A DNA stretch of 64,000 nt from NCBI GenBank assembly GCA_020342235.1, contig CP073212.1, positions 62,001-126,000 of the forward strand, read 5' to 3'. This DNA comes from Saccharomycopsis phalli (Eukaryota; Ascomycota; Saccharomycetes; Ascoideales; Saccharomycopsidaceae). Of the stretch, positions 1-62,515 are shown in pieces (the stretch's first letter is position 1; each line of letters opens with the position of its first letter). Under the pieces are notes generated by a model, which saw nothing but the letters and a program-made list of their open reading frames with translations, was not told the origin of the DNA and did no database searches. The position numbers and the translations under genes were made by a program.

Positions 1-888
1 GCGTTTGTAGTGACGCTTATTACAACACTTGCGTGTAGCAAGAGATTCCAGACTGCTACATTTGTGTTTATCGAATTCAATAATCACACAGGCTGGAGTA
101 GCAACACAATTGCTGCGATTGTGGGACTTATAAGTCCACTTTGGGCATACGCTGGACTCGACGCATCGACACACATGGTAGATGAGTTGGGAGAAGAAAA
201 GTCGAGAGTATTAATCCCAAGGGCAATAAGATATACTGTGGTTATTGGGTTTGTCACTGCGCTAGCATACTCTATTGCCATGTTCTTCTGCATTACGGAT
301 GTTGACCTGGTGGTCAGTACCCCGTTGCCGATTCTTGAAATCTTTTACCAAGCAACGGCAAAAAGTGCAGTGGCAATCTTTTTACAGAGCATGTGTATTC
401 TCTCAGGTATACTCTGTAACATTGCGGCTAATACCTGGCAAACACGAATCTGCTGGTCGTTTTCGGGGATGAATGGGGTGCCAGGATCCGCCTGGTGGCG
501 GAAAGTTGATCCTACTACGAAGCTCCCCTTGAGGGCACACATGTTCTGTAACTTCTGGATTGCTGTTATTGGGATTCTTGTGCTAGTCAGCAGCACGGCA
601 TTTAATGCGGTGATTTCAGCATGCATCACATTGCTACTTCTTTCGTATAGTATTCCGGTGATCTTACTGATGAGAGGACTGGGATGGGTGGACTTGGTTG
701 CTGGGGTGATGACGGTCTTGTGGACGATCTTCTGTTTGGTATTTTTGTCGTTTCCCTATGACCTACCAGTGACACTGTCTAACATGAATTATATTCCGGT
801 GGTTTATGTTGGTGTTTTTATCATAATGGGACTCTACTGGGTATTCTATGGCCGGAGAAACTTTGGAAAGATTGAAAGTTCAGGCTGA
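1..888 (+). CDS. GABA/choline-type amino acid permease, 3' part
   Basis: The frame is open from the first base of the window to a stop at 886-888, so the N-terminal half lies outside. The visible 295 codons contain about six hydrophobic segments and match the end of the APC-superfamily GABA/choline permeases (Uga4/Hnm1/Bio5 group). Recognisable pieces are the loop with WAYAGLDASTHMVDE near codons 48-62, PRAIRYT near codons 72-78, and PVTxSNMNY near codons 256-264. These proteins take up GABA, choline, polyamines or related amines at the plasma membrane or vacuole; the exact substrate cannot be read from this part. CTG codons at 307-309 and 775-777 fall where I expect Ala in homologs. Family assignment is solid, substrate is open. 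Confidence 0.85.
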   Translation, partial: AFVVTLITTLACSKRFQTATFVFIEFNNHTGWSSNTIAAIVGLISPLWAYAGLDASTHMVDELGEEKSRVLIPRAIRYTVVIGFVTALAYSIAMFFCITDVDLVVSTPLPILEIFYQATAKSAVAIFLQSMCILSGILCNIAANTWQTRICWSFSGMNGVPGSAWWRKVDPTTKLPLRAHMFCNFWIAVIGILVLVSSTAFNAVISACITLLLLSYSIPVILLMRGLGWVDLVAGVMTVLWTIFCLVFLSFPYDLPVTLSNMNYIPVVYVGVFIIMGLYWVFYGRRNFGKIESSG

Positions 889-1535
889 ATCTGGAGCTTA
901 AACTCTAAAGCATAATGTGGCTTATATAAGATACACAGATAAGGCCATGCAAAGATCCCAATCACTGCAACCCCGCATGTTTACATCATTGTTTAGTCTG
1001 GTATACTCACATTTTTAATTTAGTTTGTCTTCTATAGTTTTTCCATTGCTGTTCTAATCACGCCTCCTCTGTTTCCGGTATTATCTATTGTATATCTGTC
1101 TTGGCCACGCCTTGGCATAGCGCATGTTCAAGTGTCTATAATTATCAGCAGAGTGACCACTCCACTGTCAAATATATCTGTAGACATGTCCCAGATTAAG
1201 GTCACATGGCTGAGTAAGCCAAAGGACTGGGTACATTCAAGACAAGTGGAACTGCGTCTATTGTGTGTATCCCCGTGCCAAGAAATAATTAGCCGTACTT
1301 ACAAGTGTAGAAACTGCAGATATTTTATCGAATCTCACAGACTTGTACTTGTTGAATCACTGTGCTTTGCAAGACAAGATAAAACCAACCATAAAAATAA
1401 TTATTATTATTGCTCGCAGATCAACCGCCCATCTTGCCCAGGCGGCTTATCTAACGCTTACGTAAAGCGGATTCCATATTGTCAGATCAGTCCATCACCT
1501 TACGCATTAGACTACCCCCACTAACCCCGACAAGA
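889..1535. other. intergenic region, promoter side of the hydrolase
   Basis: AT-rich spacer between two genes on the same strand. A 130-codon open frame lies inside it but shows no protein-like composition and overlaps the start of the hydrolase gene, so I do not call it. A short ATT/TTA run sits near 1398-1410. Nothing else stands out. Confidence 0.6.
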
Positions 1536-2786
1536 ATGGTCCTTTCACTCGACGGAATGGCCAAAGTGCTATCGATTCCGTTCAAGATTATCAGTGCCAC
1601 TCTTTTATTCCTCGTTGGCGGCCTCAAGTATAGGAAATTTCGCGGGAACTACTTCAGCTCAATCAAGCTCGAAGTGTACCGGACTTTTGCCTCCATGAGT
1701 CCTCAGGACGCCATGGTGTTTATATGGTACTCCAACAAGACGCTATTAAACAAGTTCATCAGGCTAAAGTATCCCAATGTGACCGAGTCGATGCCACACT
1801 TTGGTGAGCCCTTTGATGCACGGTCGCTTTGGGTAGTGAAGCACGACGACCATAAGCCTGACGATCCAACGTTTATATACGTCCATGGCGGCGGATACAT
1901 GTTCCAAACGGGCATCGAGCAAGTGGAGTCGCTTATAGCTGCATACCAGCTTCTCCACGGCGAAATCCGTGCAAAGACAAATATCCTCTTCTTGGATTAC
2001 CATCTAGGCACCCAGGGATATCCGATGCCCAATCAGCTCTACGAATGCCACAACACATACCAGCAGTTGCTAAGAAATGGTCACCACAACATCAGCTTTA
2101 TCGGCGACTCGGCAGGTGGTAACATGGCAGTGTGCTACACCCAGTACTTGAAGCTCCTACACCAGCAAAAGAAACTCATGAATGTCGTCTACCCGCAAAA
2201 CCTCGTGCTCCTTTCGCCCTGGGTACGCATTGTGCCTGATCCAGACCAGTTCTGCGCGGGAAAATCATACTATGATAACCGTCACTACGACCTCGACACC
2301 TACGAAAACTACATGAACGTCAACAACTTGCCCAAGCTTCTCAACGGTCTAGACTACCGCCAGCTTCATATCTCGCCGGGGAATATTCCCTACAACAAGG
2401 AGGACTGGGCAGATATCCCTACTTTCAACAGTGAGGACTGTGGTGTATTGGTCATTTGCGGTGAGGACGAAGTGTGTCGTGATGATATCCTTGAGTTTTC
2501 GGAGGCAGTTTTAGGATGTCCTTTTTACTCAACCCAGAGGTACGGCGACTCTGGTAACCGTTACAATGAGGCAATTCACCGCTGGGAGTCGTCGCAAGGA
2601 TGCCGATCAGAGGTCCATATTGAGCCGTGGGGCGTTCATATCGGGTTTGCATTCTTTGAGTGTCACTCGCTTGAAATAATTGAGACTGCAATGAGCAAGG
2701 GTTCATTGATAAACATAGACGACTTCGATGAGACTGAGTTTTTTTCGCTAAACAAGGTAGTGCGATTTTTGAATAGAGTTTTATGA
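1536..2786 (+). CDS. alpha/beta hydrolase, steryl deacetylase (Say1)-like
   Basis: A 416-residue protein. An N-terminal hydrophobic stretch (about residues 11-30) could anchor it in the ER membrane. The oxyanion motif HGGG is at residues 117-120 and the nucleophile elbow GDSAGG at 190-195 (Ser192). Likely acid and base are in the GEDEVCRDD and WGVHIGF regions near the C-terminus. This is the hormone-sensitive-lipase-type fold of yeast Say1, which deacetylates sterols and is of similar length (about 424 residues). I chose the ATG at 1536 because the upstream in-frame ATG at 1479 would add residues lacking homology-like character. It could also be a related arylacetamide-deacetylase-type esterase; sterol specificity is inferred from family only. 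Confidence 0.75.
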   Translation: MVLSLDGMAKVLSIPFKIISATLLFLVGGLKYRKFRGNYFSSIKLEVYRTFASMSPQDAMVFIWYSNKTLLNKFIRLKYPNVTESMPHFGEPFDARSLWVVKHDDHKPDDPTFIYVHGGGYMFQTGIEQVESLIAAYQLLHGEIRAKTNILFLDYHLGTQGYPMPNQLYECHNTYQQLLRNGHHNISFIGDSAGGNMAVCYTQYLKLLHQQKKLMNVVYPQNLVLLSPWVRIVPDPDQFCAGKSYYDNRHYDLDTYENYMNVNNLPKLLNGLDYRQLHISPGNIPYNKEDWADIPTFNSEDCGVLVICGEDEVCRDDILEFSEAVLGCPFYSTQRYGDSGNRYNEAIHRWESSQGCRSEVHIEPWGVHIGFAFFECHSLEIIETAMSKGSLINIDDFDETEFFSLNKVVRFLNRVL

Positions 2787-3920
2787 TCACTTGAACCTTC
2801 CATTACCGTTTTCAAGGTATATGTTTTCTCGAATCGTCCGTTTGTCCCCTTTCGTTTGCTCTTTACCAGATATACCCTGGGTGAGCAATTTTTGAAATGA
2901 TTATTTCATAATTTTTTTTTTAGAGCCAGTTACTGTCTCTTTTGTATATTTTCAGAACTATAGTCGAGCTAATTAATCGTTAATTCGGTCAAAAATCACT
3001 TATTTACTGCCAAGACTATCAACTCAAACCTTCAGTCCATGATTAGAATAACCTAAAGGAACTAGTTTAAGGTCACAGGGTCTTGCAAAACTACCTTAAC
3101 GATAAAGTAACAAAACTTTGAATGCTTCTCTAATCTGCTTGGTGTAATGATAGAAATAGAAATATCGTCTTAAAACCCAAGAAAACTGGCGCGATATTTG
3201 TACCATCTAATTTTCGGCAATTTGTCATCACATACCATAATAATTCTTTTCTGGAACTAATGTGATGATATTTAAAACTACACTTTGCGTAGGAATAGAG
3301 AAAGTCTGACGGCTTTATCAGATACTCGGCCAATGAAAAAGGATAATCAAAGAGACAATTGCGCCTATGCATCTGGACTCTCAATACTGCAGGAATAAAA
3401 TAACGCTTATACAGCATATCTAATTAATCGATTAACATCACTATGTGCCCAAGTAGAGATAAACTTTGACCTATTTTGACCACAAGTACGCATTGTCTCT
3501 GATTGTTATGTGGTAACTAAAATATATTCGCTTGACTATTCAGAGAAATGTCTCGCCATTTATACTTGAAAATGAAATGAATCAATCCTCGTTCGATAAG
3601 AGACTAGACCGATTGGTATTATCTCTTACCTTCCAATATAGTTGGTTCAGCAAGAAATAAAGCGCAATGGATAAAAAAAGAAGCGCAATTGGTAAAAGAT
3701 TAGCATAATTGCCGAAATGATACAGAAATTGTAAGCCAGGGAGCATGAAAAAAGATAAGAAATTAGTCTAGCTACCAAGAAAAGAAGTGAAACGCCTTTT
3801 TATTACACTTGCTAAGTTTACCATATATTGATACAAATTGTGGCTTATTAAAACAGACTTCACATGTATCCTCTAGAACATCCATAAAACTAAAAGTTGG
3901 CGGCCTTAGCCTCTAATGCA
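2787..3920. other. convergent intergenic region
   Basis: AT-rich spacer between the 3' ends of the hydrolase and the methionine permease. No supported gene. A loose short duplication involving AAGCGCAAT(T)GG occurs near 3658-3695. Nothing else seen. Confidence 0.6.
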
Positions 3921-5669: not shown

Positions 5670-6033
5670 GGTCTGATACTATAATGGCAGTGTGCCGAAA
5701 CTATATATATATATATATATATACTAGGATTGCGCTTTATCAGTTCTGAAGCCACATATTATAGCCGATTTACTGACACCACAGAAGATTCCCGATTATG
5801 TAGAAGATACACACAATAAAAAAAGACGCACTATGAGACCTAAAAACGTGGTATGTAGTATACTAGACTGGCAGAATATTACTTTGCAGTGAAATTTCTT
5901 GTCCTGCTATTACTAGAAAAATTTTCCGAGACTCCTTGCTGCCTGATTGCTATATTATTCTCAATGCCAGTGTATCTGGCACCCGCAGTTCTTTGCATTG
6001 TCAGCTCAGATTGAATTTTACGTACTATGCATG

Positions 6034-6235: not shown

Positions 6236-6289
6236 TCCTGACAGGGGTCCAGGCAGGATTCTACAACAATGTAAGAAATCACGTCAGAT

Positions 6290-7978
6290 TCATGCTACGT
6301 AAATTCTTCCCTCATATGGCGCAAGAGTCTCCTGAGGCTCCAGTTCACTGCTGAGCACCAACCGGAGACCGTCTGCGAGTTTGAACAGTTTCTTTCCATC
6401 GGTGAAATTCAAAACAACATACGCGTGCTTTCCCTGGAATCTCTTGTGGTACGCAAACACCTCAGGGTCATCCATGTCGTCGATCTCCAACGATCCGTAC
6501 ACCAAAACATCGCTGTGCTGTTTGCGTATTCCCAATGCTTTCTTCCAGAAATTGAACAACGAGTCCTTATTGCGGACCTGCAGTGCCGCGTTGATCTCTT
6601 TATAGTTGTCGTTGACCCTGGTCCATGGTTTTCCAGTAGTAAACCCGGCGTTGGGCGAATCGTCCCATTGTACCGGCGATCGCGCATTGTCTCGGGCAAA
6701 GAGATTGATGCTATCCATGGTTTTCTCTACTTCCTTCTTATCATGAGTCGCCAGGTAGTTCCGGTAAAAGTTGATAGTATCAATGTCCTTGTACTCGGAG
6801 ATATCCCAGGAACGTGGCAAGTTTGTCATGCCGAGTTCTTGGCCCTGGTATATGAAGAGCGTGCCGGTTAAACTGGTGAGCATCACTGCCAACAATTTAC
6901 CCCCACGAACTCTGTTTTCCGGTGAGTCATCGACAAACCGTGTAATAGACCGTGGCTGGTCGTGATTTTCAGCAAATACTGTTGACCAAGCATCAGTGCC
7001 TTGCACAAAGTTGCTCTGGGTTTCAATAGCCCGCTTGAGATCTGGGAGTTTCCAGTGTACATTCTTGAACCGTTCGTACTTATCCTTACCCAAGTCAACC
7101 AAATCAAAAAGGAACATCATGTTCATTTCCTTCTCCTTGGCACCGGTGTACTTTACTGCATCCTTGACAGTACATTCACCCACTTCCCCAACGGTCATCG
7201 CATCATACTTGGAAGTCGTCTTGGCAAACATTTCTTTATGAAATTCGTGAATCCGTGGTCCGTGCTGGTGGTACTGGCCACAAGGCTGCCACTCAGAGTC
7301 CGGAACGACAATAGGAGCGTCGCCAAACGGTCGTCTCTTGGAGTAGATACCAGCAGTGTCGATACGGAACCCATCGACCCCACGCTTGTACCAGAACTCC
7401 AACGCGTCTTTGTAAATAGCCTGCCGAGTTTCCTCGTTATCCCAGTTGAGGTCCGGTTGTCCTTTGGCAAAAAGGTGCAAGTAATATTCGTCTGTTGTCT
7501 CATCATATGTCCATGCACTCTCGGAAAAATACGATCTCCAATTATATGGTGGATGTCTCTTACCGTCGCTGTCAATCCGAGGCTTTTCCCAGATGTACCA
7601 GTCTCTCTTTGGGTTTGTCTTGGACGATCTCGACTCCTGAAACCACTTGTGCTGGTCCGAAGTATGGTTCACCACCAAGTCTAGAATCAACTTCAAGCCC
7701 CGGGAATGACACCCCTCAATCAACCGGTCCATGTCTTCCAATGTCCCGTATTTCGGGTACACTTTGGTGTAGTCGGAAATATCGTAGCCCATGTCCTCTT
7801 GAGGTGAGTCAAACATTGGCGATAGCCAGATCACGTCCACACCCAAGTCTTTGACATAGTTGAGGGTACTGATAATCCCAGGGATATCACCGACACCGTC
7901 ACCGTTGGAATCTTTATAAGAAGCTGGCCAGATCTGATATACACTGGCTTCTTTCCACCAAACATGGTTAACCGTCAT
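6290..7978 (-). CDS. alpha-glucosidase (maltase), GH13
   Basis: A 562-residue cytosolic-type GH13 enzyme without a signal peptide that hydrolyses maltose and related alpha-glucosides to glucose. Catalytic motifs are complete: nucleophile Asp207 in GFRIDTAG, acid/base Glu265 in TVGEVGECT, and Asp340 in FAENHDQPR. The conserved region DLVVNHTSD is at about 100-108. Thr208 directly after the nucleophile is the residue found in maltases, whereas yeast isomaltases have Val; this favours alpha-1,4 specificity. The protein ends with PYEGRIYVA, close to the usual maltase C-terminus. Two Mig1-type sites lie upstream. A CTG codon at 6581-6583 (residue 466) sits in INAA-x-QV, where a small residue is more usual than Leu. 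A maltose permease lies about 4.7 kb away on the other strand. Confidence 0.95.
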   Translation of the reverse strand: MTVNHVWWKEASVYQIWPASYKDSNGDGVGDIPGIISTLNYVKDLGVDVIWLSPMFDSPQEDMGYDISDYTKVYPKYGTLEDMDRLIEGCHSRGLKLILDLVVNHTSDQHKWFQESRSSKTNPKRDWYIWEKPRIDSDGKRHPPYNWRSYFSESAWTYDETTDEYYLHLFAKGQPDLNWDNEETRQAIYKDALEFWYKRGVDGFRIDTAGIYSKRRPFGDAPIVVPDSEWQPCGQYHQHGPRIHEFHKEMFAKTTSKYDAMTVGEVGECTVKDAVKYTGAKEKEMNMMFLFDLVDLGKDKYERFKNVHWKLPDLKRAIETQSNFVQGTDAWSTVFAENHDQPRSITRFVDDSPENRVRGGKLLAVMLTSLTGTLFIYQGQELGMTNLPRSWDISEYKDIDTINFYRNYLATHDKKEVEKTMDSINLFARDNARSPVQWDDSPNAGFTTGKPWTRVNDNYKEINAALQVRNKDSLFNFWKKALGIRKQHSDVLVYGSLEIDDMDDPEVFAYHKRFQGKHAYVVLNFTDGKKLFKLADGLRLVLSSELEPQETLAPYEGRIYVA

Positions 7979-12690: not shown

Positions 12691-14421
12691 ATGAGTATTA
12701 GTCATGTTGAAGATTTGAACCACCCAGAAAAGACCAAGACGTTTGGCAAGAAAGATGGCGACTCCGAGGTAGACGTCCAGATGAACGAGTACTTGAGCAA
12801 GTTCATTGAGTTTTCCAACGAGTCCAAGGCAAACGACCACAACGAGAAAGTTATGTCCTTGAGTGAGGGTCTTAAGACGTTCCCAAAGGCTGCTCTTTGG
12901 TCGTTTGTCTTGTGTTCTACCTTGATTATGGAGGGCTACGACACAAATCTTTTAAACTCCTTCTATGGATTCCCCGCATTTCAGAAGAAGTTTGGTGTTT
13001 TCTTTCCTGAGAAAAATGAGTACCAGATTCCGGCAAAATGGCAAACTGCATTGAGTATGGCCGTCAACGTCGGTGAAATTCTCGGCTTGGCTGCTTCTGG
13101 TATGATTGCTGATCGTTTTGGGTACAGACACACTCTCGTTGGTGCTTTGATTGCCGTTATTGGTTTAATTTTTATTGTATTCTTTGCAAAGGACCTTCCA
13201 ATGTTGTTGGTGGGTGAAATCCTCTTGGGTCTTCCTTGGGGTGCATTTCAAACCTTGTGTGTGACCTATGCCTCTGATGTTTGTCCAACCAGTTTGCGTC
13301 TCTACCTCACCACATATGCAAACATGTGTTGGGTGTTTGGTCAGTTGATTTCCTCGGGGATTTTACGTGCCTTTGTGACTTCAGAGTCCAAAAATGCTTA
13401 CCGCATTCCGTTTGCAATCCAATGGGCATGGCCTATTCCTATAATCATTGGTATCTTACTCGCTCCTGAATCACCATGGTGGCTTCTTAGAAAAGGAAGA
13501 ATCGCTGACGCCAAGAAGTCATTGAGCAGACTTCTCTCTGAAAACAAGCATTTGCCTAATAAGGAAGTTCTTGTTGGTGCTACTATCACTAAGATGCAAA
13601 TGACCTTGGAAGATGAAGCAGAAACTGAGAACAACGCAAGCTATGGTGCTTGTTTTAAGGGATCAGATCTCCGAAGAACCCTCACTTGCTGTATGGTATG
13701 GTTAGTGCAGCAAATCACTGGGTCCTGTTTGATGGGTTACTCGACTTACTTTTATATTCAGGCTGGTTTGGCCACCACTATGGCATTTAACTTCTCGATT
13801 ATCCAGTACTGTCTTGGAATCATTGGAACGCTCATGTCATGGGTCATTTCACAGAAATTCGGCCGGTTTGACATCTACTTTAGTGGTCTCAGTGCCATGT
13901 TTGTGCTCTTGTTTATTGTTGGTTGCTTGGGTATAAAGCATACGGAGAATAGTGGATGGGGCGTTGGTTCGCTTTTGATCATTTTCACCTTCGTCTACGA
14001 CATGACTGTTGGGCCAATCTGCTACTGTTTAGTCACTGAGATTCCTTCCGTGCGTTTGCGAAACAAGTCTGTTGTTCTTGCTAGAAACGTCTATAATCTT
14101 GCCGGAATTGTGGTAGCCATTATCACACCTTACATGTTGAATCCTACTGCTTGGAATTGGAAGGCCAAGACCGGATTTTTCTGGTCAGGGTTCTGTTTGG
14201 GATCACTTGTTGTCTGCTGGTTCTTTTTGCCAGAGACAAAGGGTCGTACTTACGCTGAATTGGACCAATTGTTCATTGCGGGTGTCAAGGCTAGACAGTT
14301 TAAGCACACCGAGGCAGATGTTTTCAACACCGATCGTCTTATTGCCAAATTGGGTGACGATGGTATTAAGAAATTCATTGAGGAGCGGGAGAAGTCCGAG
14401 GTTCACGATGAGAAAGTTTAA
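12691..14421 (+). CDS. maltose/alpha-glucoside permease, MFS sugar transporter
   Basis: A 576-residue 12-helix sugar porter that would import maltose or related alpha-glucosides with protons. Family marks include EGYDTNLLNSFYGFPAFQKKFG near helix 1, GMIADRFGYRHT between helices 2 and 3, PESPWWLLRKGR before the central loop, and PETKGRTYAELDQLF at the end of helix 12. PESPWW-L-RKGR and the N-terminal sequence are characteristic of yeast Mal31/Agt1-type carriers. The first true ATG is at 12691. The gene contains essentially no CTG codons; Leu is TTG, CTT or CTC. Together with the maltase it makes a maltose-use locus. No MAL-type zinc cluster activator is in the window. Confidence 0.92.
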   Translation: MSISHVEDLNHPEKTKTFGKKDGDSEVDVQMNEYLSKFIEFSNESKANDHNEKVMSLSEGLKTFPKAALWSFVLCSTLIMEGYDTNLLNSFYGFPAFQKKFGVFFPEKNEYQIPAKWQTALSMAVNVGEILGLAASGMIADRFGYRHTLVGALIAVIGLIFIVFFAKDLPMLLVGEILLGLPWGAFQTLCVTYASDVCPTSLRLYLTTYANMCWVFGQLISSGILRAFVTSESKNAYRIPFAIQWAWPIPIIIGILLAPESPWWLLRKGRIADAKKSLSRLLSENKHLPNKEVLVGATITKMQMTLEDEAETENNASYGACFKGSDLRRTLTCCMVWLVQQITGSCLMGYSTYFYIQAGLATTMAFNFSIIQYCLGIIGTLMSWVISQKFGRFDIYFSGLSAMFVLLFIVGCLGIKHTENSGWGVGSLLIIFTFVYDMTVGPICYCLVTEIPSVRLRNKSVVLARNVYNLAGIVVAIITPYMLNPTAWNWKAKTGFFWSGFCLGSLVVCWFFLPETKGRTYAELDQLFIAGVKARQFKHTEADVFNTDRLIAKLGDDGIKKFIEEREKSEVHDEKV

Positions 14422-25131: not shown

Positions 25132-25243
25132 GGACGTGTGGCCGAGTGGTCTAAGGCGCCCGACTCAAGAGTTTACTCTTCGGCTGTATCAGCTGAGTCT
25201 TCGGGTCTCGTAAGAGGCAAGAGTTCGAATCTCTTCGCGTTCA
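25132..25243 (+). tRNA. tRNA-Leu (anticodon CAA) with intron
   Basis: The acceptor stem pairs GGACGTG with CGCGTTC (two G-U pairs), and the discriminator is A. The D-arm contains GCCGAGTGGTCTAAGGC, typical of class II tRNA-Leu. The anticodon stem pairs CCCGA with TCGGG around CTCAAGT, giving CAA at 25166-25168. A 30-nt intron follows position 37 (25170-25199), as in yeast tRNA-Leu(CAA). There is a long variable arm, then AAGAG-TTCGAAT-CTCTT as the T-arm, with the internal promoter B box. It decodes UUG, the main Leu codon in this window. No tRNA with anticodon CAG is present here. Confidence 0.95.
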
Positions 25244-26205: not shown

Positions 26206-27954
26206 TCATTTAAACTCCAATAGCCACTCCCAGCCGTTCTGGTTTGGCTCTGACATCTCTTCGTTATACCCTGGGCTCAGTACTGCGGAGTTTTGCAATT
26301 GCAAGTTGCTACTCGAGGCTCTACGCAATGCCTTTATGGTTGCATCGCCCAATCCCGCCAAGTTGGTGCTGCTGCTGCGCTCCTTTTTGACTTTTGTCAC
26401 ACGACGATTCTCGCCGTCATCATCCGGCCCTGTTGAGCTATTTTTTTTGCTTCTACTTGCCAGTCCGTTGCCTCGCTGCCGAGTCTTGATGACGTCGGTT
26501 TTGAGGGAAAGAGGCCGCACAATGCCGTGAAGTTTAAGAAAGAGGCCACAGGCATTGCACAACGGCTGTCCTTCTGCGTTTCTGCGCCACAAGGGTGTCT
26601 TCATGGTTTTGCAGTTTGTACACTGAGTGATGGCTCCAGTTGGTGCTGGTTTGGTTTTGTCGCGGATTTTCGGAGGAGGAGGTCGGTCTGCCTTTTTCTT
26701 TTTCTTCTTCTTGGGCAGCCGTTTCTTTTCTGTGGGGCTAGACGGAGGCACGGCCAGTGTGTCGTGAGGGTTGAAGAAGAAGATGCTCTTGATATTTTCA
26801 ATTTGAGATTGTGAGACGTGGTTTGCGCTGGGCGTAGTGCGGCTTGGAACGGGGTCTACCAATGAGTTCATGCCAATGTTTCCCAGCAGATTTATGCTTC
26901 CCGACAGGTTAATGCTTCCCAGCAGGTTGATATGGTCCATCAGGTCAACGCGGTTCATTGGGTTAATATGGTCTATCAGATCAACACGATTAACCAGGTT
27001 AATATGGTCTGCCAGGTTAATATGATCCATCAGATCAACACGGTTAATCAGGCTAATATGGCTAATCAGATCAACACGACTAATCAGATTAATATGGCCC
27101 ATCAGATTAATATGATCTATCAGACTGATGTGGTCCATCAGATTAATATAGTCCATCAGGTTAACATGGCTCATCAGATCAACATGGCTCATCAGATCAA
27201 CATGGCTCATCAGGTCAACACGACTCATTTCATGATTCGGACCAATACTGCTTATAATCTGCTCAACAGCTGGCTTCTCCACATGTCCGCCTTCGATCTT
27301 CTCATTTCCATAGTGGTTGGTATAAAAATCGCCCGACCAAGGTCCCCGACGCAGTTCGGCTGTGGGCCATCCCAGAGGAGCTTCTACAGCAAGAGGATCC
27401 AACGAAAAATGAAAGCCATTACCACCTACGAAGTCGTCTGATCCAGGCAGGAATCCTTCTGGATGGTTGAAGACAGTCAAGCCGGGGATCTTTTTGTCTG
27501 AGCGGGGAGGAAATTGGTCCGCACGATGAGGAAATTGGTCCTGGTGGTGCAGAAATTGGTCCTGGTGACGCGGAAATTGGTCCTGCCTCTGTCCGCGCAA
27601 CGTCTGGAGACGGTCACTGATCAGAGTGTCCATATCTAGTCCTTGAAGAATCGGAGTTCGAAGAAGGCTGCTGAGAAACGTGTCGGCATCACGCAGCACT
27701 TTTGCGGCGTCCAAGTCGCGTTTCTTGTCCAAGTCGCGCTTTCGATCCCGCTGAGCATGCTGGCGTGCCAATTTTATCGCCATGATCCGCCAGCTCATGT
27801 TTTCCACCCGCTCTTTGAAAGGAAGCACGGCCTTGGCCTGGCGATACATCTTCCAAAGCGCATCTGCCGACGCAAACATGTCGGCAAAACTCTCACGACC
27901 AAGCAGCTCGCTGTTTTGCAAAGACCCAGTGACAAACTCGCGGATATCCTCCAT
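26206..27954 (-). CDS. GAT1: AreA/Gat1-type GATA transcription factor with hexapeptide repeats
   Basis: A 582-residue regulator of nitrogen catabolite genes. The N-terminal AreA/Gat1 motif is clear ([33 protein letters not shown] split over residues 30-62). The GATA finger has Cys445, Cys448, Cys466 and Cys469 with a 17-residue loop, followed by a basic arm. The C-terminus [10 protein letters not shown] resembles the WEWL end by which AreA contacts NmrA-type repressors. Between lie a DQF repeat (124-150) and 20 hexapeptides (residues 243-362) of pattern M-[SDN]-[HR]-[VI]-[DN]-[CTG], and a poly-Lys tract near 415-421. The last repeat residue is nearly always CTG, so its identity depends on the genetic code. 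Gat1 versus Gln3 assignment is by general shape only. Confidence 0.88.
26869..27228 (-). repeat. in-frame 18-bp minisatellite in GATA factor gene (20 units)
   Basis: Twenty consecutive 18-nt units encode the hexapeptide array of the GATA factor. Units near 27150-27228 are almost identical; those near 26870-26940 are the most diverged. The CTG codon at the unit end is kept through almost all copies, and one unit replaces a neighbouring CTG with TCG. Confidence 0.9.
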
Positions 27955-48164: not shown

Positions 48165-49679
48165 TCAGCCATCCAACCCGATGATGTCGCCGTTTTCGTA
48201 TGCGACCTTGACAATGTCAAACGCCTTGAGGAGTTTCCGTCTTGCGCCCAAGGCGGTGACGCCGATGTTTTCCAATTCTGCGTCGCTCAAATAGACCAAC
48301 TCCTTCCACTGGTAGTTTTCCAAGATCTTGGTGTACTTGTGGAGTCTGAGGTTTTTCAACCAAATGGGCAAGTCGTTCAAGTACTTCAACTCAATGAGCT
48401 CGAGGCTGTTGAGGCCCGGGGATTTTGGGGAGAGGAGCGCCAATGTCTGGTTGGTCAAGCGTTTTCCAGGGGTGCTTACCTCTGGTTCCAGCGCGGACTT
48501 GAGGGCCAGGGCGAGGTTCTTTGGTGGTGGGGAGACGGACTTTGGCTCGTCGAAGCGCTTTTTGTTGAAGGAGAACTTCAAGAGCGACTCGTCCTCTGGT
48601 TTGCTCCCTGTGCGCTTGCGGTTCAGAGGCAGCGACAAGATCGACTCGTCGTACTTTGTAGGGGTGCTGCGCACTGCGGGCCGCGAAAACGGCTTCGTCG
48701 GCCGGGGCTCATATGCGGTTTTCTTGAGGGCGTCCAATTTTGAGCGGGAGTTGATGGTGCTGAGGGCCTGGAGTTTGAGGCGGGTTTGTGGGTCCAAACC
48801 GTCCATTGAGTATTGCAGCGGGGTAATAGGCGAGTTTGGCGAAGCTAGTCCCGGGGCCAGAGCGACGGCGGTGTTTATTTGCAAGCTGTTGCTGCGTTTC
48901 CCGAGCGCCTGCTGACTGATTGGGGATAGGAGCCCCGGCGCAAGCACGTCGGAGGCGGTGTTGTTAGGGGTGGTGGTGACGGAGATGGAGGCTGCTTTTG
49001 TGTGCGAGCGCGTCTCGTTGGCGTAGCGCATTGCCTGGTTCTGGAGGAAGCCCGACTCGGTGAGCAATGGCGAAAACACCTGGTCCTTGGACGACGGCAC
49101 GTGCACCGAGCTTGATTTGTTGTGCTGGAAGCGCGGCGTCGGAGTGAAACTGTCCTCGAGGGACGTTGACGCCAACATGGAGTCGAGGTTCGAGGTTTCG
49201 CGCAGGGTGTCAGGTGGGGAGTCCAAGTCGTCGAAGCAGACGCGATTGATTTTCACCTTGAGGTAGTTGATGACGTCGGTCAGGTGGTGTGGCGAGAACA
49301 AGAGGCAGTCGATCAACTCGTCAATGAACAACTGCTTGTCGCGCAACAGCCGCTCGTCAAGCCACAGCTTGAGGCGGGCGACCTGCTGCGCCACGCCGTC
49401 GTCGTCGTCCTTGGCGAGGGAGAAGTCCAAGTTGAGGGCCCAGTCCAGGCCCAAGTTCAGGTAGTTTGACTTGCCAAACAACGGCTTTGTGCCCTTGTCG
49501 AAGCCGTAGCGGGACGCTGGCGGGGACAAAATTGCCATTGCCGTCAGCGGCGACGCGGCAACTGTCTGCGGTTTCACAAACGAGGAGCCGTATCGGGAGT
49601 CCACAAACAGAACTGACTGGGACTTTCCGTGAAGGCCCAGCGGCTCAGACAAGAAGCTCTTTTGGTTGTACGCTGACAT
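48165..49679 (-). CDS. VTS1: SAM-domain RNA-binding protein Vts1
   Basis: A 504-residue protein, close to the yeast length (523). The C-terminal SAM domain is at about residues 432-500, with LPIWLKNLRLHKYTKILENY, WKELVYLSDAELENIGVTALGARRKLL and then AFDIV. It is of the Smaug type, which binds RNA hairpins with a CNGG loop and recruits the Ccr4-Not deadenylase. The rest is Ser/Pro/Thr-rich and probably disordered, with a conserved N-terminal block (LDWALNLDFSL..., a D/E-rich helix). Leu codons in the SAM domain are TTG or CTC, never CTG. The start is the ATG at 49679. It is divergent from PDE2 over 124 bp. Confidence 0.95.
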   Translation of the reverse strand: MSAYNQKSFLSEPLGLHGKSQSVLFVDSRYGSSFVKPQTVAASPLTAMAILSPPASRYGFDKGTKPLFGKSNYLNLGLDWALNLDFSLAKDDDDGVAQQVARLKLWLDERLLRDKQLFIDELIDCLLFSPHHLTDVINYLKVKINRVCFDDLDSPPDTLRETSNLDSMLASTSLEDSFTPTPRFQHNKSSSVHVPSSKDQVFSPLLTESGFLQNQAMRYANETRSHTKAASISVTTTPNNTASDVLAPGLLSPISQQALGKRSNSLQINTAVALAPGLASPNSPITPLQYSMDGLDPQTRLKLQALSTINSRSKLDALKKTAYEPRPTKPFSRPAVRSTPTKYDESILSLPLNRKRTGSKPEDESLLKFSFNKKRFDEPKSVSPPPKNLALALKSALEPEVSTPGKRLTNQTLALLSPKSPGLNSLELIELKYLNDLPIWLKNLRLHKYTKILENYQWKELVYLSDAELENIGVTALGARRKLLKAFDIVKVAYENGDIIGLDG

Positions 49680-49803
49680 GAATGAACAAGTCGCTCCCGC
49701 CAGCGGGAAAAAACTGCATATCATTACCCGGACATATTACATAAGCAGGAAAGGGAGCCGTTTCTTTTTTACAAACCAGCGGGCGCCTTGGTTTTTCACC
49801 ATC

Positions 49804-51786
49804 ATGAACCAGTACCCGGTAATCTTCTGTGGCCCTGTCCCAGCGCCGTTGGCAGAGTTCGCTGATGTCGTCACGTTCCGCCGCCCTGCGGACCTCCTCT
49901 TTGCCTTGACCAGAGTCTCCGAGAACGAGTACGACTTGAGCTTTCCCTTGTTGATTGTCCTTGGCCCGATGCCGCACAAATCTGACGTCCCCAAGTCCTT
50001 GGCCGACTTGTCCTCGGACCAGCTTGCCGCGTTGTTGCGCAGGTTCTTCCGCCACTTGTGCGTCATCGTCACTGACGTCGCCGGCGCTCAGAAGTACAAG
50101 CACGAGATCCAGGTCGACCATCAGCTCTTCCTCAAGAACCGCTACACCCGCATGCAGTCGTGGATAGGCGTTGCCACCTACGGCAACAGCTTGCCTTGCA
50201 CCCTTCTGGAGAAATTGCACCGCCACAGCCAGTTCTCCCGCGCCACGTACCCGCGCTTCCCCAGCTACATGTCCAGCATGAACAAGAAACTCGCGTCTTT
50301 GCTCAGCGGCGACGACGTCTCTACCGACCAGGAATCGTGTTATCTTGCGCTTTTGGTCCGCGAGATCCCCTACGCCTCGATAATCGAGTCCATTCCCGAG
50401 CCGCGCCGCTTCGTGATCGAGCAGTTCCTCATCGAGGCCTGGAACTTCCCCGCGCACTGGCTCTCATACAACGAGCTCGTGTACGCGTGCTTCTTGATCT
50501 TCAAGCGCATCTTCCAGCTTTTTTCCACGTCCCGGCTCGCGCTCCCCGACAGCAGGCTTCTCGCGTTCATTTTTCGCGTCCGCGACTTGTACAACGGCGG
50601 AAACGAGTTCCACAACTTCAGGCATACCGTCGACGTCGTCCAGGCCGTGTTCTTCTACATGCTCAAGCTCCGGCTTCTTCCCCGGACGTCGCTCTTCTCC
50701 AAGAAGATCCTGCTCCATCGCCACTCCGCCCAGCCGGCAGCATCTAACCCAGACACCGTCATCCAGGGCAACGAGCAGACAGTCGGCAACAACGCAGACT
50801 CATCCAAGATACCCGAAGAATTGGACCCCATCATTGAGCATGCTGTCTACCAGCAGGACCCTGCGTCGTACATCGCGTCCCTCACCGTCCCGCCAGGTTG
50901 GGGCGACAGCGTCCCGGAAAACTTCCAGCTCCTCTGCCCAATCAAGGTCTTGTGTCTTGCCATCAGTGCCTTGGGTCACGACAGCGGCCATCCGGGCTTG
51001 ACCAACGCGTTCATCGCCAAGAGCGACTCGCCCTTGCTGTCGATCTTCCCGCAGTCGATCCTCGAAAACTACCACTACATTGTGTTCCACGAGCTGCTCA
51101 AACTCCACTGGCCCGAGCTCTTTGTCAGCGAAAACGTGGCAGAAATCAACAACGGCTCTCCGGTCGACGTCAGCAAACTCATTTGCGAAAGCATCTTGGC
51201 TACCGACATGGAAAGACACTTCTCCTTCATTGAGCAGATCAACACCCTCGAAAAACAGGCCATGGCCGCAAACGCAAAACACGTTGACATCCCAAAAAGC
51301 CTCTTGTGCCAGCTCTTGCTCAAATGCGCGGACATCTCCAACGTCACCCGGCCCCTTCGCCTCAGCGCACGCTGGGGAACCACCTTGGGCCGCGAATTGG
51401 ACGAGATCGCAGTGCTATCAAACTTGCTCGAGTCCAACCGCAAGTTGCATGCAGCTTCCTCCGAGACAGAGCTCAAAAACATCACAAGCACCAGCGACTT
51501 CCAGCGATTAATGACGGCGTACGAGTCCACCGACACGCAGCACGTGCCCCAGTTGATTGAGTTTTTGCGCAGCGGACACTCGCCAGATCCCCCGGCCGAA
51601 GAACCCACGTTAAGACAGCTCATCGACAACAACCCGCGTCTCTCGGGAAGCCAGACGTTCTTTGTCGAGAAGATCAGCTACAAGTTGTTTGCCAAGATCA
51701 GCGACGTGTTGCCCTCGTTGTCGTTCACCAAGACCATCATGGAGAAGAACCTTGCCTTGTGGAAGTCCCTCCAGAATTCTGGCTGA
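49804..51786 (+). CDS. PDE2: high-affinity cAMP phosphodiesterase Pde2
   Basis: A 660-residue class I cyclic nucleotide phosphodiesterase that lowers cAMP and so damps PKA. The metal-binding HD motifs are visible: HNFRH at residues 270-274 and GHDSGHPG at 391-398, then LLKCADISNVTRP further on. The N-terminal third is specific to fungal Pde2. The ATG at 49804 is preferred over 49666, because the extra upstream residues lie in the shared promoter with VTS1 and include the VTS1 start. Third codon positions are very GC-rich, giving long antisense frames that are not genes. A CTG at 51037-51039 lies in SPL-x-SIF, where PDEs usually have Ala. Confidence 0.95.
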   Translation: MNQYPVIFCGPVPAPLAEFADVVTFRRPADLLFALTRVSENEYDLSFPLLIVLGPMPHKSDVPKSLADLSSDQLAALLRRFFRHLCVIVTDVAGAQKYKHEIQVDHQLFLKNRYTRMQSWIGVATYGNSLPCTLLEKLHRHSQFSRATYPRFPSYMSSMNKKLASLLSGDDVSTDQESCYLALLVREIPYASIIESIPEPRRFVIEQFLIEAWNFPAHWLSYNELVYACFLIFKRIFQLFSTSRLALPDSRLLAFIFRVRDLYNGGNEFHNFRHTVDVVQAVFFYMLKLRLLPRTSLFSKKILLHRHSAQPAASNPDTVIQGNEQTVGNNADSSKIPEELDPIIEHAVYQQDPASYIASLTVPPGWGDSVPENFQLLCPIKVLCLAISALGHDSGHPGLTNAFIAKSDSPLLSIFPQSILENYHYIVFHELLKLHWPELFVSENVAEINNGSPVDVSKLICESILATDMERHFSFIEQINTLEKQAMAANAKHVDIPKSLLCQLLLKCADISNVTRPLRLSARWGTTLGRELDEIAVLSNLLESNRKLHAASSETELKNITSTSDFQRLMTAYESTDTQHVPQLIEFLRSGHSPDPPAEEPTLRQLIDNNPRLSGSQTFFVEKISYKLFAKISDVLPSLSFTKTIMEKNLALWKSLQNSG

Positions 51787-56825: not shown

Positions 56826-57869
56826 CTATATTGCCAACAGATTTTTGTTGCAATAACCAGACTGTTACAATTGACTCATGTGTGTATAATGATACATTTT
56901 ACAGTTGCTCAGCTGAAGTTCAATCATTGCAGGAGGTATAAAAGCCAATTACATGTTCAGCGCGGTTACCAACCACTCTTTCCACAGGAACATTAACATC
57001 CATAGTTGCATCCTAGCAAATTAGTGGCTTCTATAGTCTCTATTGATAATTATTCATTGCAACTATTTTGAATTTTCTCCATTTCCAAAGTTGAAGGCTT
57101 TGCAGTTTGATGTAGTTGATAGATAAAATGCTACTCAATAGGAGTACAGTCATAATTAACAAAATATGGCACTTGTGGAATTCTCTATTCTGAATTTGGT
57201 TGATAAATAGGATCTTTAGTAAATGGGCGAGTATTTTGTGAGCTTAGGATTGTTGTGTAGATTTGTGGTAGTCAGTAGAATCTGAAGAATTAATAGAAGA
57301 GGTACATTCTCAAGGGAATATCCAACTATATATTTTGTTACTTTTTTGGAGTAGAATAGGAGGTCTTTTATTTGGCTTTTATGCTTAACATAGTTTTGAA
57401 TTGTCGTGGTTCAACCGTCTGCCGACTGAATTTGTATACTAAATACACCTGGTCAATAGTGGCGGAGGAATTATTCATATACCTGGCAAGATAATCCCTG
57501 ACATTATGCATGGACATCAGCCATCTTCTATAAGAAGAGGAGATTTCCACTGGCTTAGGAGGACAATTATTCTTTCGTTACCACACCCATCCGGATATTC
57601 AATCCCGAGCAACAAAACAATTACTTGAGAAGTTTATCGAACTAATCTAAATTATCATGGCAAACCGTGCTGGTAAATCTAAACATCAATACATGTAATT
57701 ATACATGTATGATCGTTTTATGGAACCTCAACTATTACGTCACTAGATGAATGGTAGACAAAAAGCTGTCTGGCGACAATGAGGAGTTGAATAATTTACA
57801 TACATTAGAGTCTAATGAGGTACCTGGTCTACTTGGGCATTTTCTTTATCATATTATTCATAGCACCCA
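56826..57869. other. convergent intergenic region
   Basis: AT-rich, 1 kb, no gene recognised. Small leftward frame at 57368-57550 lacks features. Confidence 0.55.
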
Positions 57870-60446
57870 CTAACTGTTGGAAACGCTGTGGTTCATCGGG
57901 TTTGGAGTCAACTCGGATTTAAAAAAGACATTTTCAAAGTTGGAGAAGTTGTTTGGTACCGGGTTGTTGTCGTTGTTGATGAAAACGGGATTCAGCGGTT
58001 CATTGTCCAATGATATGTCCAAGGGAATGTCCAATGGAATGTCCAACGGGATGTTCAACAACTGAGCCAAGCCAAGGGAGCCGTCTGCGGCAAACTCAGA
58101 GAATAGACTCATGTCAAGCTCCATTTCGTTGGAGGATGCCTCGGTTTTGACGCTCTGCAGACTTTCTGTCGTGGGCTGTCTCTCCATTGGCTGGACTTGC
58201 TCCAAAGCATCGATGGAACTTTCCAACTCGCGCTCCTGCTTCTCGACACGTCTGGTGCGTTTTTTCTTCTTTCCGGTAGAGTTTGGCGGCGACAAGATGG
58301 CCTGGATGGCGTCATCGAGGGTCTTTGTGCAGGCTACGGTTAGACATCCCGGGGCCTCGATTTTTGTCTCTAGTTTCAAGTCGCTGACGAGGTTGACGAG
58401 GGTGAGGCGTAAATCCTGGAAGAGATGGCCGCCACGGGCGTATTCTAGGGCGGATTTTGCGGCTAGAAGCGCGTAGCGGGCGCGCATTCTTGAAGGGTTG
58501 AGAGGTATGGCGAGGATGTAGTTCTGGAGGGACATGTGGTTTGTGATGCTGAGGATGGTGCATGATGCTTGGTGGATTGTGATGTAGGAGGAGGAGCCGC
58601 GGGAGGAGTGTAGTTCTGTGGCAAGTACCGGGAGGTATATGAGGAGTTTTGCCTGGTAGTAGAAGGTGACCAATATGAGGATCTTGTTGTTGTAGCTGCG
58701 GAAGTCTGGTGATTTCGGGTCGAAGCGGAGGTCTGGAGGCAAGTCCTTGCGCCAGGACTCGAGCAAGTTTTCGAGTAGGATGCAGGACTTTCGGAGGGAG
58801 TCTGGGGTGATGCCTCCGCGCCTGAAGATGGAGTCGAGGATGTTACCGAGGATCTTTGAGTAGCGCATTACTGCGAGGGAGATGCCCGAGACTTTGCCGA
58901 CCAAGGACAACTTTGAGTTGTTGACGATCAATATGTTTGTGTTGTGGTCGTCGCCCAAGCTGTCGTTTGCAAACGGAAGCGCGCACTCGATCTCGTAGTC
59001 CTTGATGAGCCGCGGGACGCCTAGCTGGAGCGATGCGAATGCGTCGAGGCTGTAGATGCACCAGAAGAGGATGCGGCGTTCGGACTGCTGGATTTTCGAC
59101 ACTGTGGTTCCCTTTGTGCCCAAGACTGCGGACGGGCAGCGATGGAGGCGCAATTGCTGAGCCATGGAGACGACTTTGCCACGGAGCACGTAGGAAGTGT
59201 CGGTGTTTCCGACATGGAGGCTGTATAGCAATGCCAAGGTGAGGATCTGGAGGGACTGGATGCAGCACAGGGCAACCAATGAGGACTCGACCAACTGGCG
59301 GACGAGTTTGTCGTAGTAGCGGAACGCGGCGGACCATTCTGGGTCGATGGAATCGTTTGGCACGTCGCCGCGGTACTTTGAGCTGTGTTTCTTGCCGAGA
59401 AGCGCAATCACGACGACAAGAAGGAGAATGGCGCCGAACTTCTCCTGGCCAAACAAGGCGTTGTCGTTGAACTTGTTTTCTGCGCTGGCGGTCGCCTGGA
59501 TGTACTTTTTGAGGAACTGCTGCTGGTCAAGAATCGGGCAGGTTGCTGCCCAGTGCTGGAAGAAAAACGTCACAAGCTGGTCCAAGTCGACGCGCGGCGG
59601 GAGCTTCAAGCTCGTAAAGAAGAGATACGACTCGGCCTTGGTCGCTGCGGCAAAGTTGATGTTCCGGAGGTTCGGCACGTGCTCCTCGTGCTGGGTCGCC
59701 GACTCGTGCGGGAACTTGAGAAGCGCAAGCGACCGCGCAGTAAGCACTGCAGGAGTGGATGCGTACCCATATATCCCGCCGATCTTCGCCACCAACGACG
59801 GGATGAAGAGCGTCTCCTCCGTGGTGCGCGGCGTCGCCATCGCCACTAACTCGGCAATGCTGTTTTTCACGTGAGTCTTGTCATGCTCCATCGACGCAAT
59901 TGTGAGCGCAGCCTGGGTTCCTGGCGCGTCCTTTTGCTCAAACGACACGTTGAAGAAGCTAAACTCCGGCCGCTCGACGCTGGCAAGCGACGCGGCATCG
60001 TCGTCACCAAGAATCGACGTCGGCCGCTCATGCACCGAATGTGGGTAATTCACGCACCCACAGCCGTCGTGGCCCGGCCCATGGGCCTCCTCGAAAAGCA
60101 GCAAGTTCAGTGAGCTCAACTGGAGGTCCAAGGCCCCTTTGATCAGCGGAGTCGGCGACATCTCCTGGCCCAACTGCTCGTCCTTCAAACTCAAAAGCGC
60201 CTGCAACTTCCGGGTCTCTGCCTGCAACTCCCTCACCCGCTCCTCCAAGCTCTCAGTGTAGCCCCGAGGAAATGCCCGCTTCGAGAGCCGGTCGCTGATC
60301 TTGCACTCGAACCCAACTGCAGCACACTGGGAACACTGGGGTCGTTTGCCGTCGCACTTGGTCTTCTTCGACCGGCACCGGTCGCATGCCTGTGCCACCC
60401 GCTCGATGCCGTCAACGGACTTGATTACTTTCGTTTTGCGCAGCAT
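57870..60446 (-). CDS. CAT8: Zn2Cys6 transcription factor, Cat8-like
   Basis: An 858-residue regulator. The zinc cluster uses Cys21, 24, 31, 38, 41 and 48 ([20 protein letters not shown], then QCAAVGFEC). The following [26 protein letters not shown] is the Cat8-type linker and dimerisation helix. A fungal regulatory (middle homology) domain covers about residues 280-560. The C-terminus has an acidic, Asn/Pro-rich activation-type tail with an IPLD repeat near 815-828. Yeast Cat8 turns on gluconeogenic and glyoxylate genes on non-fermentable carbon. S. cerevisiae Cat8 is much longer (1433), so this is a compact form. GC-rich coding gives long antisense frames. Confidence 0.85.
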
Positions 60447-60911
60447 AAATCAATGTTCTGACTCACCAATTGCACATGTCACTTCCCCGGGAAAATACCG
60501 GGAGTGGGGGCGTTACCCTGTACACGTGACACAGGGCCTGGTATTCTTTACAGTGTGGCGTGGCTCAGTGGGGCTTTAATGGGGCTGGATTGTTGTGAAA
60601 TCATGTTTCACAATCGCTGGTCCGCTACTGCCAGGGACTCGTTTCATTTCTCAGTCAACACTCCGCCAATCTTTGCCTGTCAAATCCTCCACTGTATGCC
60701 CTTTCTGAGAGGGTAGCCTAGTCTCCTGCAATTGGATAAACGCATACAGTCGTGTGCCTTGCCTTGCGTCGTATCCAAGTGTTTGGCTTGATGTGTAGTT
60801 TATCATGTTGGTACGATTACATGTCTTTATTCTAAATTATCAGAACAATTGATGTGGCAATGTAGTTTTATATTATTGTAGGCGTGGATTCATTTTCATT
60901 TTATTTATATC

Positions 60912-60968
60912 ATCAGTGTGGTTTCATCATCAGTGTGGTTTCATCATCAGTGTGGTTTCATCATCAGT
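60912..60968 (+). repeat. 17-bp tandem repeat, 3.4 copies
   Basis: Unit ATCATCAGTGTGGTTTC repeated three times with a partial fourth copy. Confidence 0.9.
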
Positions 60969-61372
60969 TCATTTATATTCACATCACTGATTCTTGTTTA
61001 TTCTAATCTATATTGCTTGTCCCGTTTCTTGGATTCAAACCAAATGAATACACATCACTGTCTTTCCACAAGAATTCTCAAAAATACAATACAAGTTTCA
61101 TCTTCAAATACGTTGTTACCGTATTGACAGACACTCGGAAATTTCAAGTAGCAACATTCACCAGAAACTCATCTCTTCTAATCAGAACAAGACAATGCAT
61201 TAATTACAAGGCCCGAGGTCCGTGCATCACAGTATCACATTTCATTAAGAGAAACTATTTGACAATCGCAACATAATTAGAAATCCCCAAGTAATCAAAA
61301 CTACCAAACTATTATGCACTCCACTCTTCAAGTTGCCTTGCAACTCATTTGTCATCAGAATCATTGGCCCAC

Positions 61373-61505
61373 CATTTAAATGCCAGGAAGTAGTCATTGA
61401 GATGCCAAAAAGTGATTATTGAAATGCCAAAAAGTGATTATTGAAATGCCAAAAAGTGATTATTGAAATGCCAGGAGTAATCATTGAAATGCCAGGAGTA
61501 ATCAT
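61373..61505 (+). repeat. 22-bp tandem repeat, about six copies
   Basis: Unit GAAATGCCAAAAAGTGATTATT; three central copies are identical and outer copies have CCAGGAGTAATCATT in the second half. Confidence 0.9.
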
Positions 61506-61652
61506 TTCAATTCACCTATTTATAATAACCATCAGCGACTATTTCAATTACCCATTTATAATAACCATCAGCAACTATCTCAATTCACCCATTTATAATA
61601 ACCATCAGCAACTATCTCAATTCACTCATCTATAATAACCATCAGCAACTAT
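61504..61652 (+). repeat. 36-37 bp tandem repeat, four copies
   Basis: Unit core TTTATAATAACCATCAGCAACTATCTCAATTCACCCA, following directly on the 22-bp array and running into the end of the next gene. Confidence 0.88.
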
Positions 61653-62515
61653 TTCAAATCATTAAAATAACCCCAAATAACATTCCCTACAAGCTTCTTA
61701 ATACAATAAAACAACACCACCACCATTACCACATTGGCCACACTTAGTCCAATAATCTTGTTTCGACGCTGCTGATTCTTATGGATAATCGTCCGCATCT
61801 TCTTCTCCTCGTCAAGCATCAGATCAATATTCATAATCAACAGATTCTTCTCCTCAATAGCCCCACGCAACCGCTTCAAATCACCCTCAAACTGTTCAAT
61901 ATCCTCCAAATCTCTCTCAAAGTCAGTCTCTCGCTTCCCATGATCGTTAATATTCTGGATCCGGCACACCAACGCCTTTCTAAACTCAACCAACTGCTCA
62001 TAACACTGCGCAAGGAGCTGTATGAATTTACGAAACTCTTCCATTCTCTCCTGTATCTGGCTATCCAGCCTCTCTATTGCCTCATAAAACTTATTTATCC
62101 CACCTGCAAGCTGCTCACAGTCACATTTAATTGCTGCAAACAGAAAATCATCGTCATATTGCAAGTTCTTGTATCGTTCTCTGACCTTGGTAAACTCCTT
62201 GTAATCACGATGAAACAACTGCACGGGCTTCTGATCCATAACAAAAAGCGACTTATCAATACTACTATCAACACCTTTGCTGAAAAACAGTGTCTCTTTA
62301 ATCAAGCCCCCCAGTTTTCCCAACCTCTGAGTCAAGTCTCGAAGACCACGCTGTAGTGCCCCAAACTCATTTGCCTCGGTCTTTGTGAGTTCAAAATAGT
62401 CTTTGGCCTGGTGGTTCGTCGGCGACGGCGTAATGGAAAAGCTCTGCAGCAACTTTCCCTCATTACTAGTATTGTAGAACCGTTCAACGAGTTCGGACAT
62501 GACCTCAAACGGCAT
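61649..62515 (-). CDS. orphan coiled-coil protein with C-terminal membrane anchor
   Basis: A 288-residue protein of unknown family. It is largely helical with long heptad-like runs (about residues 45-235; for example QIQERMEEFRKFIQLLAQCYEQL). One hydrophobic segment near the C-terminus (about 255-275, IIGLSVANVVMVVVLFYCI) is followed by a short basic, aromatic tail. This is the layout of tail-anchored or SNARE-like membrane proteins, or mitochondrial membrane organisers. The first ATGs are at 62515 and 62500; the upstream extension starts with GTG. A CACGTG lies at 62579-62584, about 65 bp upstream. Function cannot be assigned. Confidence 0.6.
   Translation of the reverse strand: MPFEVMSELVERFYNTSNEGKLLQSFSITPSPTNHQAKDYFELTKTEANEFGALQRGLRDLTQRLGKLGGLIKETLFFSKGVDSSIDKSLFVMDQKPVQLFHRDYKEFTKVRERYKNLQYDDDFLFAAIKCDCEQLAGGINKFYEAIERLDSQIQERMEEFRKFIQLLAQCYEQLVEFRKALVCRIQNINDHGKRETDFERDLEDIEQFEGDLKRLRGAIEEKNLLIMNIDLMLDEEKKMRTIIHKNQQRRNKIIGLSVANVVMVVVLFYCIKKLVGNVIWGYFNDLK

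Follow-up and report, generated by a model that had tools for sequence, protein, structure and literature searches.

Does CTG encode leucine in the yeast whose DNA is analysed here? The question was raised by a 64,000-nucleotide stretch (positions 62,001 to 126,000 of contig CP073212.1 in assembly GCA_020342235.1; hereafter the window), for which the initial annotation proposed, from the letters alone, that CTG might stand for serine or alanine. The source yeast is Saccharomycopsis phalluae, a mushroom pathogen that belongs to the CUG-Ser2 (Ascoideales) clade. The GC content of the window is 44.2%, and that of the genome is reported as 43.55% (PMC8468998). We searched the genome (14,148,124 bp in eight contigs, with C1 of 2,335,166, C4 of 1,822,654 and C7 of 1,540,684 bp) for tRNAs with the anticodon CAG and scored protein domains under three readings of CTG. 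Both lines of evidence lead us to conclude, with a probability of about 0.97, that S. phalluae reads CUG as serine through a tRNA-Ser(CAG) with three gene copies, whose anticodon would have changed from that of a tRNA-Ser(GCU) type.

The tRNA with a CAG anticodon

Of 806 candidates in an Rfam tRNA search of the genome, 63 were scored, and most class II tRNAs were not among them; sequence patterns based on a tRNA box consensus were used instead, and a class II covariance model was applied to the fetched loci. A pattern for CAG tRNAs that was open to both class II and alanine-type tRNAs gave 11 matches in the genome. Three of these are one and the same tRNA, encoded outside the window (Table 1), and the other eight loci hold no tRNA by ARAGORN or by the class II model. 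The tRNA is of class II and 81 nt long when spliced, with a 10-nt intron at the 37/38 place and the anticodon loop C32 A33 C34 A35 G36 A37 A38, and a T run lies downstream of each copy. Its discriminator base G73, its long variable arm and its closest relative, tRNA-Ser(GCT), place it with the serine tRNAs and not with those for leucine or alanine. The CAG tRNA whose identity the initial annotation had considered telling is thus present in the genome. As an additional observation, the acceptor stem of the C5 and C7 copies contains a U3-G70 wobble pair, and that of the C3 copy contains U3-A70.

Nuclear tRNA introns sit after position 37, and the anticodons of intron-bearing tRNAs were read with the intron placed there. 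One result speaks against this assignment: ARAGORN, with introns on, labels the CAG tRNA as Thr(TGT) and places the intron at position 33, where nuclear tRNA introns are not known to occur. The same program also reads several of the intron-bearing tRNA-Leu(CAA) genes as Val or Met, and with the bacterial code and introns off it found no tRNA in the window. The spliced reading is supported from outside by an exact run of 31 nt, spanning the whole anticodon arm, that is shared with the expressed tRNA-Ser(CAG) of S. malanga, as given by a published Northern probe (PMC8629427). The other serine tRNAs of the genome that were compared (GCT, CGA and AGA) share at most 11 nt with the target of this probe.

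Outside the anticodon arm, tRNA-Ser(CAG) is identical to tRNA-Ser(GCT) at 58–59 of 65 positions, to tRNA-Ser(CGA) at 55–56 of 65, to tRNA-Ser(AGA) at 49–50 of 68 and to the leucine tRNAs at 46–48 of 66–70. Descent from a tRNA-Ser(GCU) type is therefore suggested by sequence, with a modest margin over Ser(CGA), and is consistent with the origin and the A37 reported for the tRNA-Ser(CAG) of the CUG-Ser2 clade by Krassowski et al. 2018 (PMC5951914). CUG could have been captured in this way when one member of a tRNA-Ser family changed its anticodon. The resulting tRNA would be charged with serine and used in translation, the first because seryl-tRNA synthetase, like alanyl-tRNA synthetase, is reported to require no particular anticodon bases (PMC5951914).

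Protein domains and the meaning of CTG

The codon inference proposed in the initial annotation was run as a Pfam-score version on part of the genome. Identical open reading frames (ORFs) were translated with CTG as leucine, serine (NCBI table 12) or alanine (table 26) and then scanned against Pfam. The ORFs were all 21 CTG-bearing ones of the window plus 26 and 29 from fetched loci (batches 2 and 3; loci are numbered with an L), which were chosen for CTG in ordered-looking stretches, with retroelement-like ORFs excluded. Families were taken from the best 25 of 37 for the window, of 65 or 66 for batch 2 and of 40 or 42 for batch 3. The 58 counted domains comprise 18 from the window plus the permease at 1–885, 15 from batch 2 and 24 from batch 3, and some genes give two or three. 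Dropped before the count were AA_permease, PF24981 and five Kelch models in the window; S1_RRP5 and, because they overlap one counted WD40 domain, the remaining WD40 models in batch 2, with serine-minus-leucine differences that run from −13.5 to +13.0 bits; PF25168 and NOT2_3_5_C, listed for leucine only; PF25047 and CSTF2_hinge, listed for serine and alanine only; and LRR_8 and LRR_4. Two batch 2 loci, L042 and L055, overlap the window, and MFS_1 is the sole counted batch 2 family among the 25 listed for the window.

Over the 58 domains, serine exceeds leucine by 84.2 bits and alanine by 15.3 bits. Serine scores better than leucine in 30 domains, worse in eight and equally, within 0.3 bit, in 20, the largest gains being those of ORC2 (+9.0 bits), Cullin (+8.0), BIG2_C (+5.5), RasGAP (+5.1) and Metallophos (+4.9). 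The sum suggests, indirectly, that CUG positions hold serine in the proteins. With the serine-type CAG tRNA, this preference bears out the proposal that CTG is not leucine.

The initial annotation had considered alanine as open as serine, and for the window this was correct: its 19 domains give +9.2 bits for serine and +10.2 bits for alanine over leucine, so that the window cannot separate the two. The larger data set does not leave them level, as serine scores better than alanine in 22 of the 58 domains and worse in nine. A CUG-Ala code of the Pachysolen type is also at odds with the class II serine character of the CAG tRNA, with the pattern open to alanine-type tRNAs, among whose 11 matches only the three serine tRNAs are real and no tRNA-Ala(CAG) was found, and with the place of the species in the Ser2 clade. 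Such a code is therefore very improbable here.

A control in which CTC was recoded gave the opposite result. In three genes, reading CTC as serine shifted the main-domain scores by −16.6, −17.3 and −3.7 bits (8, 12 and 2 CTC), about 38 bits lost together, whereas reading CTG as serine in the same genes gave +2.3, −1.2 and +5.0 bits (2, 2 and 4 CTG). This control bears on the simplest alternative, namely that the code is standard and CTG is merely rare through codon bias. The scarcity of CTG would fit such a code, and Saccharomyces is reported to read CUG by tRNA-Leu(UAG) without a tRNA-Leu(CAG) (PMC5951914). However, a standard code is at odds with a serine-type CAG tRNA in three copies, with CUG columns that do not prefer leucine and count 84 bits against it, and with a control that moves the main domains the opposite way to CTG recoding, and we give it practically no weight.

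Several domain results pull away from serine. The eight domains that favor leucine do so by 0.4 to 2.0 bits, and five of them, with differences in that range, are among the 19 of the window (DUF498, one amino-acid permease, PDEase_I, CH and RasGEF). The PDE2-type phosphodiesterase domain, with two CTG, gives +1.05 bits for alanine and −1.2 bits for serine relative to leucine. Two of the uncounted WD40 models also side with leucine, PF24817 by 13.5 bits and PF25168 by appearing, among the matches listed, for leucine only; eight other uncounted WD40 models and S1_RRP5 favor serine by 2.2 to 13.0 bits. In addition, L063 has a CH domain free of CTG whose score moved by −1.7 bits when the reading of CTG was changed, and two minor families of this locus were not lowered in the CTC control (CH +0.1, IQ +1.7 bits). 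Because of these movements in L063, differences of 1–2 bits are taken as noise.

The capping enzyme of L001 scores 380 bits against 1p16, presumably the Candida albicans protein, and 314 bits against 3kyh, presumably that of Saccharomyces cerevisiae; these scores do not settle where the genome belongs. Two CTG sites of this enzyme are aligned and, read by eye, stand opposite K in both cases in 1p16 and opposite S and E in 3kyh. L058 and L014 had no match in the Protein Data Bank (PDB) at the thresholds used, and the PDB match of L063 is confined to the CH region, which has no CTG.

Leucine tRNAs and a possible ambiguous reading

The class II pattern identified 33 genes in the whole genome: serine tRNAs with anticodons AGA (8), TGA (3), CGA (4), GCT (6) and CAG (3), and leucine tRNAs with AAG (5), TAG (1) and TAA (3). 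A second pattern gave 13 matches, one of them false and removed, leaving 12 genes for tRNA-Leu(CAA), through which UUG keeps its standard meaning, leucine. CUU and CUC would be read by tRNA-Leu(AAG) and CUA by the single tRNA-Leu(UAG).

The class II patterns found no tRNA-Leu(CAG) in the whole genome. A first, intron-independent pattern for the 5′ half of this tRNA gave 48 matches (control, 59). A regular expression for the A box fits none of the 48, and the class II model, run over the loci of these matches and nine others, returned a single match of 10.3 bits that lies away from the pattern. A second 5′-half pattern gave 68 matches (control, 95), of which five pass a D-loop test; on these five and two more loci, the class II model had no match at E up to 10, and a genuine tRNA included in that run reached 82 bits. 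The T arm of the S. malanga tRNA-Leu(CAG) had no match in the genome with up to three mismatches. A tRNA-Leu(CAG) thus seems to be absent from S. phalluae, by patterns that fall short of proof, as a diverged or long-intron gene could escape them. Separately, the locus C5:1534380-1534580 (L105) looks intergenic and has two small hairpins and, by eye, CTGA/TGATG boxes, perhaps those of a C/D snoRNA; the class II tRNA model did not match it.

Since three copies of tRNA-Ser(CAG) and no competitor were found, serine is the expected reading of CUG. It could instead be that CUG is read stochastically as serine and leucine, the situation reported for Ascoidea asiatica, with leucine brought in by a competing tRNA-Leu(CAG) or by wobble of tRNA-Leu(UAG). 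The leucine gene is said to be retained in most Saccharomycopsis species, going by the title of a 2024 paper on the codes of Ascoideales. Both CAG tRNA types, serine and leucine, are reported in 10 of 11 genomes of Ascoidea and Saccharomycopsis (PMC8629427, the eLife 2021 Codetta paper), and the one tRNA-Leu(TAG) gene and the eight domains with a slight lean to leucine are also compatible with an ambiguous code. The failure of the class II, 5′-half and T-arm patterns to find a tRNA-Leu(CAG), within the limit just given, points the other way, as does A37. With A37 instead of m1G37, the tRNA should escape leucyl-tRNA synthetase; A37 is cited as suppressing leucylation in a paper that itself doubts the older leucylation experiments (PMC8645108). 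We infer that CUG is not reached by wobble pairing of tRNA-Leu(UAG) in S. phalluae, and allow ambiguous reading only a small chance.

CTG in the window and the code of the clade

The 26 ORFs counted in the window (11,872 codons) contain 144 CTG, 250 CTC, 239 CTT, 457 TTG, 74 CTA and 75 TTA. The proposal that CTG codons are few therefore holds in comparison with CTC and TTG but needs qualification, as CTA and TTA are each less frequent than CTG and the GATA-factor ORF (26206–27954) alone accounts for 31 of the 144 CTG. Across the window and the fetched loci, 128 ORFs were counted after the removal of three ORFs from two window-overlapping loci; their CTG:CTC ratio is 412:889 and their GTG:GTC ratio 1190:819 (Fisher p = 7e-55, odds ratio 0.32). 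CTG makes up about 0.9% of the sampled ORF codons (435 of 49,732). Per ORF, its frequency shows a weak correlation with that of serine codons (rho 0.22, p = 0.012) and none with that of leucine or alanine codons, and the disorder of its neighbors is nearer to that of serine than of leucine codons, although not significantly (p = 0.09).

Table 1 Positions of the tRNA genes, ORFs and CTG codons discussed (window coordinates unless a contig is given)
Feature	Position	Strand	Remark
tRNA-Ser(CAG) copy	C3:1181409-1181499	−	outside window
tRNA-Ser(CAG) copy	C5:1553992-1554082	+	outside window
tRNA-Ser(CAG) copy	C7:1518961-1519051	−	outside window
CTG codon, GABA-type amino acid permease fragment	307..309	+	DVD-x-VV
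CTG codon, GABA-type amino acid permease fragment	775..777	+	PVT-x-SNMNY, read as Ser
Maltase / alpha-glucosidase ORF	6293..7978	−	4 CTG
CTG codon, maltase	6581..6583	−	INAA-x-QV; Asp opposite in 3a47
Sugar (maltose-type) permease	12691..14421	+	no CTG; Sugar_tr 311.7 bits
tRNA-Leu(CAA) gene with intron	25132..25243	+	1 of 12 in genome
Tandem array, GATA-factor ORF	26884..27213	−	units of ~6 residues; CTG fixed at one position of nearly every unit
VTS1-type ORF	48165..49724	−	SAM_2 domain; 16 CTG
CTG codon, PDE2-type phosphodiesterase	51037..51039	+	SPL-x-SIF

The four CTG codons singled out in the initial annotation, at 775, 307, 51037 and 6581, are all present in the contexts given there, and the maltose permease has indeed no CTG among its 62 codons of the six-codon leucine set. 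That CTG replaces small residues where it occurs in conserved blocks is not always true: the four sites of the maltase, in an alignment read by eye, face K, D, D and D in its best PDB chain, 3a47 (an oligo-1,6-glucosidase), and none faces leucine. The Alpha-amylase domain of this maltase gains 2.3 bits with serine over leucine. The ORF at 1–885 scores 90.5 bits against AA_permease_2 with leucine, 94.0 with serine and 91.7 with alanine, and the SAM_2 score of the VTS1-type ORF is nearly constant whichever way CTG is read. The codon exchange described for the GATA-factor array is real, with units reading AAC CTG CTG GGA AGC, AAC CTG TCG GGA AGC and AAT CTG CTG GGA AAC. Some units of this array have CCA in place of CTG, or a doubling as CTG-CTG or CTG-TCG.

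Two other kinds of repeat were seen in the loci. The coding stretch ISNELPIGGTSFRKVMH of L056 recurs as DNA, near matches of the first 5′-half pattern, at five places in the genome (L056, L061, L072, L098 and L101) and probably marks a retroelement family. At a contig end, L103 (C1:1-10000) has a short tandem repeat that reads HPHIRTSA in one frame, and its ORFs resemble, by eye, a LINE endonuclease/reverse transcriptase.

Among the known codes, that of S. phalluae is most like CUG-Ser2 (Ascoidea and Saccharomycopsis), in which CUG has the same meaning as in NCBI table 12: the tRNA-Ser(CAG) is of the GCU type and has A37, its anticodon arm is identical to that of S. malanga, the genus is Saccharomycopsis, and CTG is few in conserved genes, as reported for the clade (PMC5951914). 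However, the tRNA-Leu(CAG) of 10 of the 11 surveyed members was not found in S. phalluae by our patterns; this ancestral tRNA is a common feature of Ser2 and not a defining one, and Ascoidea rubescens is also reported to have lost it (PMC5951914). CUG-Ser1 (Candida, Debaryomyces and others) likewise reads CUG as serine by a class II tRNA-Ser(CAG) with G73, but its tRNAs are reported to be UCN-derived (PMC8645108) and have G at position 33 (in C. tropicalis and C. sojae, C33) and in most species G37, whereas that of S. phalluae has A33 and A37 and is nearest to Ser(GCT). What A33 does in tRNAs of this kind is described as unexplored (PMC11415595). The CUG-Ala yeasts (Pachysolen, Peterozyma and Nakazawaea) share with S. 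phalluae the reassignment of CUG by a new tRNA(CAG), which in their case is a tRNA-Ala(CAG). As for the organism itself, a search of the whole S. phalluae genome found no ATP sulfurylase (PF01747), the same search being positive in five of 14 control genomes, in keeping with the methionine auxotrophy of Saccharomycopsis, which is reported to have lost sulfate assimilation (PMC11392346).

The CUG-Ser code of the genus and clade has been known since 2018, and serine as the reading of CUG is thus right but not new biology. For S. phalluae itself, no statement on the CUG code was found in the literature searched, and the terms CUG, CTG, codon and genetic code do not occur in the available main text of its genome paper (PMC8468998). 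For that reason, the predicted proteins, gene models and pathogenicity annotation of this species may contain wrong residues, leucine for serine, at CUG; S. phalluae proteins need NCBI table 12 and not the standard table. From an evolutionary perspective, the switch of CUG was probably completed here by a loss of tRNA-Leu(CAG) separate from that in A. rubescens, and the published proteome probably carries leucine for serine at CUG. Such a loss would add a data point on the end of the Ser2 transition, and if it is true, comparison with the Saccharomycopsis species that keep a seemingly unused tRNA-Leu(CAG) could test why it is kept.

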